In this document: positions 30,305 through 33,522 of the stretch, piece after piece
Layout of the letters: each line of letters starts with the position of its first letter
Position numbering within the stretch: position 1 is the stretch's first letter
Assembly (NCBI RefSeq): GCF_006874625.1
Contig: NZ_CP030034.1
Coordinates: 2,356,001-2,420,000, forward strand
Direction: 5' to 3'
From: Bdellovibrio sp. NC01
GTDB taxonomy: Bacteria; Bdellovibrionota; Bdellovibrionia; Bdellovibrionales; Bdellovibrionaceae
DNA length: 64,000 nt
Made by a program: the position numbers and the translations under genes
Notes under the pieces: generated by a model
What the model saw: only the letters and a program-made list of their open reading frames with translations
Told to the model about the DNA's origin: nothing
Database searches by the model: none

Positions 30305-31519
30305 TCATATAGAGGCTGGCGTTCTTTTCGCTGGCTGCACTACTAAAAACTGAAATGCACACAGGGACAGCAATCCACAGAACAGAATGACTCCACTCAT
30401 CGGGAAGGCTGTACCGTTATGAAAATAACTTACGAAGTACGAAGACACTGAAGCCATACTCCACTGCAAACACCCATAAAGAGCTGATGCCGTTCCCGCC
30501 TGATGGCCTTGTGAAGACAGGGCTCCGGCTAAAGAGTTCGGACTGATAAAATTCAAACTCGCGAGGAAAATAAAAATAGAACCCAAGAAGACATACTTCG
30601 AAGGACCACTCCACGCGAAAAGTAAAACACACGCAGAGGCAATCGCGGCAATCCGCACACTCCAACGTAAAATCGTATCTGGAGCCCAACGTGATAACAA
30701 ACGACGATTCACTTGTGAAGCCAAGACTAAACCCAGCCCATTCAAACCAAAGATCAAGCCATATTTTTCTGAAGGTATTCCCAGAAGCTCAATAAATACG
30801 AACGGAGAACCCGCTATATACGCGAACATTCCCGCGCGCACGGCCGTGTCTGGAATCAGGTAACCAACGAAATTTCTATTGCCTAAGAGTTTGATATAGG
30901 AAGTAAAGACCGTACCGATTTTTAATTCAGTTTTTCGCACCTTGCTTGTTTCAGGCAAGAAAATAGCGATCGCAATCATGCACAGCAAATTGGCGCCTGC
31001 TAATACAAAGAAAATCGCTTTCCATCCGAAGTGTTCGTTAATCACCGCACCCACGGTTGGCGCGATAATGGGTGCAATCCCCATCACTAAAGCCATATTA
31101 GACAAAAAAGTCGCGACTTGTTTCGTATCAAACAGGTCACGAATTATCGCACGCGTAATCACCATACCTGCGCAACCACCCAGGGCTTGCAACAAGCGAA
31201 AACCGATGAAGGTTTCAATATTTGGGGCGAAAGCACAACCCAACGTCGCAAAGAAATAGACAAGCATTCCCAATTGCAACGGCAGCTTACGGCCAAAGCG
31301 ATCCGCTAGCGGTCCATAAAAAAGTTGGCCGAAGGCCATACCAACGAAAAACGTCGATACCGAAAGCTCCACGTTTGACATTGTCGTCATAAAATCCTTT
31401 TGAATACTGCCAAAGGCTGGCAAGTACATATCAATAGTCAAAGGATCAAGCGCCGTTAGAGTTCCTAATAATAAAACCAAACCAATGCCGTTTAAGAGTT
31501 TACTATTTTCTTTATCCAT
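30305..31519 (-). CDS. Bcr/CflA-type MFS multidrug efflux transporter
   Basis: This 404-residue, 12-helix transporter shows LDPLTIDMYLPAFGSIQKDF, GQLFYGPLADRFGRK (MFS motif A) and RLLQALGGCAGMVITRAIIRDLFD, all typical of Bcr/CflA drug-H+ antiporters. ATG 31519 follows AAGGATGATCACC. The reading from 31540 would overlap the siderophore-reductase gene further. It is the last gene of a PadR - SIP - MFS operon, so here it may export siderophore-related or metal-chelating compounds (inference). Confidence 0.93.
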   Translation of the reverse strand: MDKENSKLLNGIGLVLLLGTLTALDPLTIDMYLPAFGSIQKDFMTTMSNVELSVSTFFVGMAFGQLFYGPLADRFGRKLPLQLGMLVYFFATLGCAFAPNIETFIGFRLLQALGGCAGMVITRAIIRDLFDTKQVATFLSNMALVMGIAPIIAPTVGAVINEHFGWKAIFFVLAGANLLCMIAIAIFLPETSKVRKTELKIGTVFTSYIKLLGNRNFVGYLIPDTAVRAGMFAYIAGSPFVFIELLGIPSEKYGLIFGLNGLGLVLASQVNRRLLSRWAPDTILRWSVRIAAIASACVLLFAWSGPSKYVFLGSIFIFLASLNFISPNSLAGALSSQGHQAGTASALYGCLQWSMASVSSYFVSYFHNGTAFPMSGVILFCGLLSLCAFQFLVVQPAKRTPASI

Positions 31520-32258
31520 GGTGATCATCCTTACTGGCATTCCAATAACCAGTTGCTTTCACCCACTGTTCATTCGCGCCACGAACAGTGACCAGTAAAT
31601 CGCGCAACTGCATTGCTACGGATTTTTCTGTCGCAATCCACACGAAATAGTCGCCAACAGGAAAACCCGTTTTTAGAATTTCATTTTTAAACTGTTCTGC
31701 GGATCCAGGCTTACGCCCATGGCGATAAAGCCATTGCACTTGCACATTTTCAGACAGTGGCAATTGAACACGATGCGTTTCATCTTCAACTTCAACAATC
31801 ACAATGGCCTTAGAGTGTGCAGGCAATTCGAAAAGACGGCGTCCAATAGATGGCAACGCTGTTTCGTCACCAATCATCAAGTACCAATCGAAGCTATACG
31901 GAACAACCCTAGATCCGCGAGGTCCACCGATTGTTAATTCGGCACCTACTTGTGCCTGTGACGCCCATGATGAACCTGGCCCTTCACCGTGAAGCACGAA
32001 CTCAATATCCAACTCTAAAGCATTGTTGTCGTATCTGCGCGGTGTATAGTCACGCATGATAGGTTTATCTTCTCCAGAAGAAGGTAAAAAGACCTTGATA
32101 TGATCATCGGGCGATAACGATACAAAATCTTTAAGCTCGGAACCGGTAAAAGTAATCCGGCGCATACGGGAATTTAATTCTTCAATCTTCTTTACCGTTA
32201 ATGTGCGCTGTTTCAGTTGATGCATCACCGTTTTAATTTCACGATCTGGTGTTGACAT
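31512..32258 (-). CDS. Siderophore-interacting protein (ViuB/YqjH-type ferric-chelate reductase)
   Basis: This 248-residue cytosolic flavoprotein reduces ferric siderophores with NAD(P)H to release iron. The FAD domain carries RDYTPRRYD (RxYTxR) and HGEGPGSSWASQAQVG. The C-terminal SIP domain has YLMIGDETALPSIGRRLEL-like sequence and FVWIATEKSVAMQLRDLLV. ATG 32258 follows AAAGGG; extra upstream codons are rejected. It lies four bases after the PadR gene and overlaps the MFS gene by eight bases. The PadR-SIP pair matches E. coli yqjI-yqjH in kind. Confidence 0.93.
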   Translation of the reverse strand: MSTPDREIKTVMHQLKQRTLTVKKIEELNSRMRRITFTGSELKDFVSLSPDDHIKVFLPSSGEDKPIMRDYTPRRYDNNALELDIEFVLHGEGPGSSWASQAQVGAELTIGGPRGSRVVPYSFDWYLMIGDETALPSIGRRLFELPAHSKAIVIVEVEDETHRVQLPLSENVQVQWLYRHGRKPGSAEQFKNEILKTGFPVGDYFVWIATEKSVAMQLRDLLVTVRGANEQWVKATGYWNASKDDHHG

Positions 32259-32262
32259 AAAT

Positions 32263-32805
32263 TTACCCTTTGAGCTTTCGAATCTCTTCAGTGGCGCGGT
32301 CAATAACTTCTGCCACCTTCAGTTTGGTTTCTTTGTTTGCATCAATGAATAAAAAAAGTTCGGCTTTAAATGCATGCATTGCACGACGAATCGGCGAAGT
32401 TTCACGACTCGCAACGTCCATCATATCTTCTCGCCCCATCTCTTGACGCAGTCGAGAGACCCGCTGCCCCGCCATTGCAAAACGCGACAAAATCTCTTTC
32501 ACGAAGGCGATGTTTTCTTTTACTAAAGTTTTTCCCTCAGAAGTGATTTTATAAAGCTTTTTATTATCTTCTGTCGTTGCTGTGGCAAATCCACCCTCTT
32601 CCAAAAACGTCAGAGTGGGATAAATAACACCGGGGCTTGGCGTGTAAACTCCAGATGAAAGATCTTCCAATGCCTTGATAAGCTCATAACCATGACGAGG
32701 TTTTTCTTCTAGCAAAAATAGAATGACATAACGAAGATCGCCGTGACGTAAAAGACGTGACAGCTTTTCTTCAACACCGCGCCCACCTCTATGATGCCCA
32801 CGCAT
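32263..32805 (-). CDS. PadR-family (YqjI-like) metal-responsive regulator
   Basis: This 180-residue protein has an N-terminal His-containing tag (MRGHHRGGRG). A PadR winged helix follows (LRYVILFLLEEKPRHGYELIKALEDLSSGVYTPSPGVIYPTLTFLEEGGF), then a C-terminal dimerisation helix region. AAGGAGATATTT before ATG 32805 decides the start over a longer frame to 32892. E. coli YqjI, also with a His-rich N-terminus, represses a ferric reductase gene and responds to Ni or Fe; by analogy this protein probably represses its own operon through three palindromes upstream. Confidence 0.9.
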   Translation of the reverse strand: MRGHHRGGRGVEEKLSRLLRHGDLRYVILFLLEEKPRHGYELIKALEDLSSGVYTPSPGVIYPTLTFLEEGGFATATTEDNKKLYKITSEGKTLVKENIAFVKEILSRFAMAGQRVSRLRQEMGREDMMDVASRETSPIRRAMHAFKAELFLFIDANKETKLKVAEVIDRATEEIRKLKG

Positions 32806-32824
32806 AAATATCTCCTTTGCTTCA

Positions 32825-32882
32825 GATATATCTTTTTTAAATGTTTTCGATATATCTAAATAGACACTACTTCCGATATATC
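32825..32882. promoter_or_regulatory. Three GATATATC palindromes, likely PadR operator
   Basis: AGATATATCT (core 32825-32832), CGATATATCT (32849-32856) and CGATATATCG (32875-32882) lie 24 and 26 bases apart, on the same helix face or nearly so. They are upstream of the PadR gene, the first reaching close to its ribosome site. The outer two extend to TTTTCGATATATC and GATATATCGAAAA, mirror images. Confidence 0.7.
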
Positions 32883-32951
32883 GAAAACACAAGAGGCCGA
32901 GCTTAAATGCGAATTAGTTGAGAATTTGCAACTCAGATCGATTTAAATAAC

Positions 32952-32978
32952 AAAAGATCTCTTCCTCAGAGATCTTTT
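32952..32978 (-). terminator. Intrinsic terminator
   Basis: AAAAGATCTCT - TCCTC - AGAGATCTTTT, a perfect 11-base stem downstream of the leftward lipoprotein gene at 33013. Confidence 0.75.
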
Positions 32979-33012
32979 AGATCGTGAAGTAAAATAATTT
33001 GTATCGCGAAAT

Positions 33013-33522
33013 TTATTGAATATTAGAATCGGCAAAACTCACCGAAAGCGGAATAGTCTTTTGCCCTTTGGTGATGTGCCCTTTCAGATTGAATCCTTTT
33101 GTGACGTCGGCCTTTTCTTGCGGGACTTCAAATGTATAAACTAAGCGCGTGGTCTCCCCGGCTTTGACATTCACCTTTTCTTTGACTTGCATAAGGGCAG
33201 CATAGTCGCCGTTGTTCGAATAGTGCCCCGCCTTCGACAAAATCAGAAGTTTCTTATCATCATCGGTCAGCACGATATCCTGCATCGACATCGTCGCTGT
33301 TTCGTCGCCGAAGTTTTCCATTTTTAAATCCAACAAAAGTTTCGTATCCAATCTGCGCAAAGAAAATCTCATTGTGACATCATCAAAGATGACTTTGTGA
33401 TTATCTTGAACCTGCACGGAAGCAGGCGCTTTGACTTTTGCTGGTTGATAACGAGCCACCGACTCACACCCAGTGGATAAAAACAATAAAGCAAAACCGA
33501 TAGGAGTTTTAAAAGATTTCAT
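33013..33522 (-). CDS. Predicted lipoprotein, beta-sandwich type
   Basis: This 169-residue protein has a lipobox LSTGC (Cys19). The mature protein is beta-rich (VIFDDVTMRFSLRRLDTKLLLDLKME, TTRLVYTFEVPQ), with alternating hydrophobic strands like an Ig or DUF-type accessory domain. It has no catalytic motif. It is divergent from the methyltransferase gene at 33599. Confidence 0.75.
   Translation of the reverse strand: MKSFKTPIGFALLFLSTGCESVARYQPAKVKAPASVQVQDNHKVIFDDVTMRFSLRRLDTKLLLDLKMENFGDETATMSMQDIVLTDDDKKLLILSKAGHYSNNGDYAALMQVKEKVNVKAGETTRLVYTFEVPQEKADVTKGFNLKGHITKGQKTIPLSVSFADSNIQ

Follow-up and report, generated by a model that had tools for sequence, protein, structure and literature searches.

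What reads the three copies of the palindrome GATATATC that precede a PadR-family regulator gene in Bdellovibrio sp. NC01, and to which signal does the operon behind them answer? In the window, i.e. the whole 64-kb stretch of DNA analysed, an NfeR/YqjI-like padR gene (32263..32805, minus strand, ATG start, 180 aa; PF03551, 64 bits) is followed on the same strand by a gene for a siderophore-interacting, FAD-dependent ferric reductase (SIP) of the YqjH/NfeF family (31512..32258, minus strand, 248 aa) and by one for a Bcr/CflA-type MFS transporter (30305..31540, minus strand, 411 aa), with a 4-nt gap between the first two genes and an overlap of at most 29 nt between the second and third. Like the flavin ferric reductases that are its structural relatives in the PDB (Thermobifida FscN-like 4yhb, Shewanella SIP 2gpj, and ViuB 8c4l), the SIP has both Pfam domains (PF08021, 107.9 bits against a cut-off of 23, and PF04954, 107.3 bits against 26.3), and it shares with siderophore-interacting flavin ferric reductases the flavin-binding-type motif RDYTPR. 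Unlike for known SIP reductases, no siderophore synthesis or receptor gene is found in the operon. A look across the genome turned up only a single TonB-dependent receptor barrel (G000:C1:802851-803993) and a single IucA/IucC-like match, which is weak (28.8 bits; G000:C1:1928879-1929199). The transporter scores well over the cut-off of the Bcr/CflA family model TIGR00710 (323.9 vs 200.9 bits), just under that of the Bcr equivalog (293.7 vs 303), and far under that of the rhizoferrin importer FslD, whose profile it also matches (119 vs 500). The Pfam and NCBIfam assignments thus agree with a preliminary description of the locus, which had recognized a YqjI-like PadR, a ferric-chelate reductase, and a Bcr/CflA protein in this order behind three near-identical palindromes 24 and 26 bases apart.

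These palindromes are exact copies of GATATATC at 32825..32832, 32849..32856, and 32875..32882, given here without strand, which together span 19 to 77 bp upstream of padR with the spacing just mentioned. We number them from the distal end: operator 1 (32875..32882) extends to TTTCGATATATCGGAA on the minus strand, operator 2 (32849..32856) to TTTAGATATATCGAAA, and the extra, proximal operator 3 (32825..32832), which lies 19 bp upstream of the start codon of padR and ahead of a ribosome-binding site read off the sequence (AAGGAG, 32812..32817, minus strand), to AAAAGATATATCTGAA. Against the extended palindrome TTTCGATATATCGAAA, the three sites score 15, 16, and 13 of 16. No other exact GATATATC occurs in the window, and the whole genome (3,975,853 bases) has 18 copies, the remaining 15 of which are isolated, all lie within ORFs (longest-ORF call), and have poorly symmetrical flanks, with 12 of 16 matches to TTTCGATATATCGAAA at best. 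The regulon therefore appears to consist of the padR-SIP-MFS operon alone, since the three operators are the only intergenic exact copies genome-wide. Further upstream, a terminator-like hairpin (32951..32979, minus strand; 12-bp stem followed by a T-rich tail) may end the neighboring lipoprotein-like gene (33013-33522) and isolate the operon, although it must be regarded as tentative because such matches are no commoner here than in shuffled sequence. A literature text search for the site sequence GATATATC gave no useful match.

Comparison with other genomes strongly supports reading these palindromes as operators. Among 369 genomes of Bdellovibrionota, five full-length PadR orthologues were identified, including the one in the window; SIP directly follows padR in all five operons, and each of the four others carries two GATATATC copies upstream, 25-27 bp apart, as counterparts of operators 1 and 2. 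The third gene is more variable: an MFS gene is present only in the window and in G103, a genome of the same order but a different family whose MFS protein is 75% identical to that of the window, while a quinone-oxidoreductase-like gene takes this place in L142 and no third gene is found in L140 or L141. We could demonstrate no empty site in relatives, as the genes flanking the operon in the window are non-syntenic in G020, G006, G014, and G022. Four of the five operons, among them two close sisters, share a layout in which operator 1 stands 10 bases past the first T of a TTG and takes up a 17-nt spacer, giving the promoter-like arrangements TTGCTA-17-TAATAT (L140), TTGCTA-17-TATATT (L141), and TTGAAA-17-TATTCT (L143). 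The arrangement in these orthologues points to a putative, weak promoter around operator 1 in the window (32864..32892, minus strand), where TTGTGT is followed after 17 nt by a poor TAGTGT. This shared layout of TTG, site, and hexamer suggests that a bound repressor would cover the promoter.

Many genomes of the Bdellovibrio group encode the same SIP without this PadR and offer an internal control. In 12 such solitary-SIP loci of 10 kb, neither a match to this PadR nor any GATATATC was found, so that the sites track PadR: they are present in 5/5 PadR-linked SIP operons and in 0/12 loci with a solitary SIP. We also considered whether the PadR-linked SIPs form a separate, imported lineage, and found no support for this: linked and solitary SIPs are intermixed in the SIP tree, itself poorly resolved, and the GC content of the operon (0.449) matches that of the window (0.443). 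The genome of the window additionally contains a second, shortened SIP remnant (a frame of ~92-99 aa at L222:4904-5182, i.e. G000:C1:1707404-1707682), which matches only residues 123-236 of the operon SIP, with an internal gap, and is possibly a decaying solitary SIP of the kind found in related species.

The association between regulator and palindrome extends well beyond this phylum. We collected 80 further related PadR loci from a bacterial genome scan, a best-scoring and hence non-random sample, mostly from Proteobacteria with some from Gemmatimonadota and Acidobacteriota and one titled Mycobacterium. At 57 of these loci, the 350 nt that precede the conserved portion of padR contain an exact GATATATC, with more than one copy at 37, compared to a background of 1 in 1,529 windows of the same loci and 0.3% of shuffled upstream regions. 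At the other 23 loci there is no exact copy, and many of these display one-mismatch variants. In the PadR tree, SIP neighbors appear at three separate places (Bdellovibrionota, E. coli, and Burkholderiaceae), so the operator goes with this clade of regulators, and the reductase is a recurrent partner. Other members of the family show arrangements of their own. A Rhizobium clade (L054, L055, L058, L076, L077, L081, and L100) carries the variant operator pair GATATATG and GATACATC upstream of padR, 26 bp apart as in Bdellovibrionota. Three Yersinia relatives (L060, L079, and L086) have four exact GATATATC upstream at spacings of 19 and 35-36 bp, and in L060 the gene after padR encodes a small protein (103 aa) rather than a SIP.

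The nearest known counterpart of the operon is the nfeR (yqjI)-nfeF (yqjH) system of E. coli. NfeR represses nfeF (yqjH) in E. coli and Klebsiella, this repression being relieved by excess nickel, and nfeF is up 85-fold in a Klebsiella nfeR mutant (PMC7981267). The PadR of the window aligns with E. coli NfeR over its full length, including the C-terminal part, at 42% identity, both regulator genes adjoin a SIP-family ferric reductase gene, and in E. coli K-12 MG1655 an exact GATATATC sits at each end of the nfeF-nfeR intergenic region, i.e. at both promoters, just as exact copies lie upstream of padR in the window. The two loci differ in several respects, however: the genes are divergent in E. 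coli but form a same-strand operon in the window, which also includes the additional MFS gene, and the single E. coli sites are ~230 bp apart, whereas those of Bdellovibrionota are clustered in twos or threes, 24-27 bp apart. A Fur box was recovered in the E. coli region (14/19, a score reached by 2.7% of shuffles), yet the same test yielded none in the window, where the best match (11/19) was equalled by 92% of shuffles. Taken together, the padR-SIP-MFS operon can be classed as a variant NfeR-NfeF system, and the three palindromes are very probably the binding sites of its own PadR.

The regulators also differ ahead of their conserved core. E. coli NfeR has a Cys/His-rich N-terminal extension that the PadR of the window lacks: the 60 residues ahead of the core in E. 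coli include 13 His and 7 Cys, against 21 residues with 3 His in the window protein, which starts with MRGHHRGGRG and contains no Cys anywhere. Orthologues L002 and L003 have 39 residues with 12 His in this position, and the PadR of L004 has a Gly/Arg-rich extension. The cysteines of E. coli NfeR are required for its nickel response. Judging from the protein sequence, most of NfeR's metal-binding tail has been lost from the PadR of the window, and because this sensor extension is almost absent, the metal-responsive reading is weakened and a nickel response is unsupported. We thus predict that this protein, as NfeR does, binds its operators and represses a ferric reductase gene, and do not class it as a nickel-sensing NfeR. 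With regard to the preliminary description, the His tag it had noted does not hold up against these counts, while its proposals of an operator role and a self-contained operon are upheld by the distribution of the sites, including their conservation upstream of orthologous operons, the lack of which it had itself named as a ground for refutation. It had also left open whether the MFS gene replaces or joins yqjH; because the SIP is itself the yqjH counterpart, the MFS gene joins it, as an extra in two of the five operons, and the idea of a replacement falls away.

From the genes, the sites, their conservation, and their link to PadR, all of which are read from the genomes themselves, it is highly probable that this is an autorepressed operon of the NfeR type, and we propose a model that goes beyond these features in how PadR binds and represses, where the promoter lies, what induces the operon, and which way the transporter works. 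PadR dimers would bind the GATATATC palindromes and exclude RNA polymerase from the whole operon, since the predicted -35 and -10 boxes flank operator 1 and transcription would start close to operator 2. Operator 3, immediately ahead of the ribosome-binding site, would provide one more point of repression. An intracellular signal, be it a metal, a ferric chelate, or another small molecule, would release PadR and so induce the cytoplasmic ferric-siderophore reductase together with the MFS protein, a putative inner-membrane carrier of the chelator or of a toxic compound. Three observations count against this reading: the promoter hexamers of the window are poor and are missed by a consensus promoter scan, which found no match at the operators of either the window or L140; the exact site is missing from 23 of the 80 related loci; and operator 3 is not conserved, as none of the four Bdellovibrionota orthologues has a third exact GATATATC upstream of padR.

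Other explanations would change either the signal or the protein that reads the sites. The same repressor and sites could form a genuine nickel or iron sensor exactly like E. coli NfeR, acting through the few remaining histidines or through core residues. The full-length homology, the 12 His kept before the core in L002 and L003, and the relief of E. coli NfeR by nickel (cited in PMC7981267) all favor this possibility, but the depleted N-terminus and the missing Fur box, in a test that recovers the E. coli one, make it rather unlikely. An operon devoted mainly to drug or toxin efflux, with PadR responding to a small molecule that the Bcr/CflA protein exports and the reductase in a secondary role, seems more doubtful still. 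Some other PadR regulators do control efflux genes and the third gene is clearly Bcr/CflA-like; however, the constant partner of padR is the SIP, with the MFS gene in only two of five operons, and the E. coli and Burkholderiaceae relatives adjoin SIP genes rather than MFS genes.

Finally, GATATATC is short and palindromic, and its one-mismatch copies occur in the window at the frequency predicted by chance, so the sites might be bound by another protein or simply have arisen by chance in AT-rich intergenic DNA. At the genomic background density, however, such triples are expected only ~3e-7 times per genome, and the strong enrichment of GATATATC upstream of related padR genes, many of them in high-GC genomes, along with its absence where SIP occurs without PadR, makes this extremely improbable.

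Our preferred reading, an autorepressed operon of NfeR type, carries several implications. The ferric reductase of the Bdellovibrio group would be under PadR control in some species and outside this circuit in others. For the wider family, GATATATC, carried by 57 of 80 sampled loci, gives a large PadR clade an operator that can be tested directly. It is conceivable, if somewhat short of probable, that the metal-sensing tail of this repressor family turns over whereas its reading head and its one operator word, GATATATC, stay the same from phylum to phylum, the sensor having been lost or replaced in this Bdellovibrio lineage so that the circuit would answer a different signal and an exporter was recruited. 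The natural series of regulators with a Cys/His-rich extension, a His-rich one only, or neither, all reading one DNA site, could help locate the metal-sensing part of NfeR.
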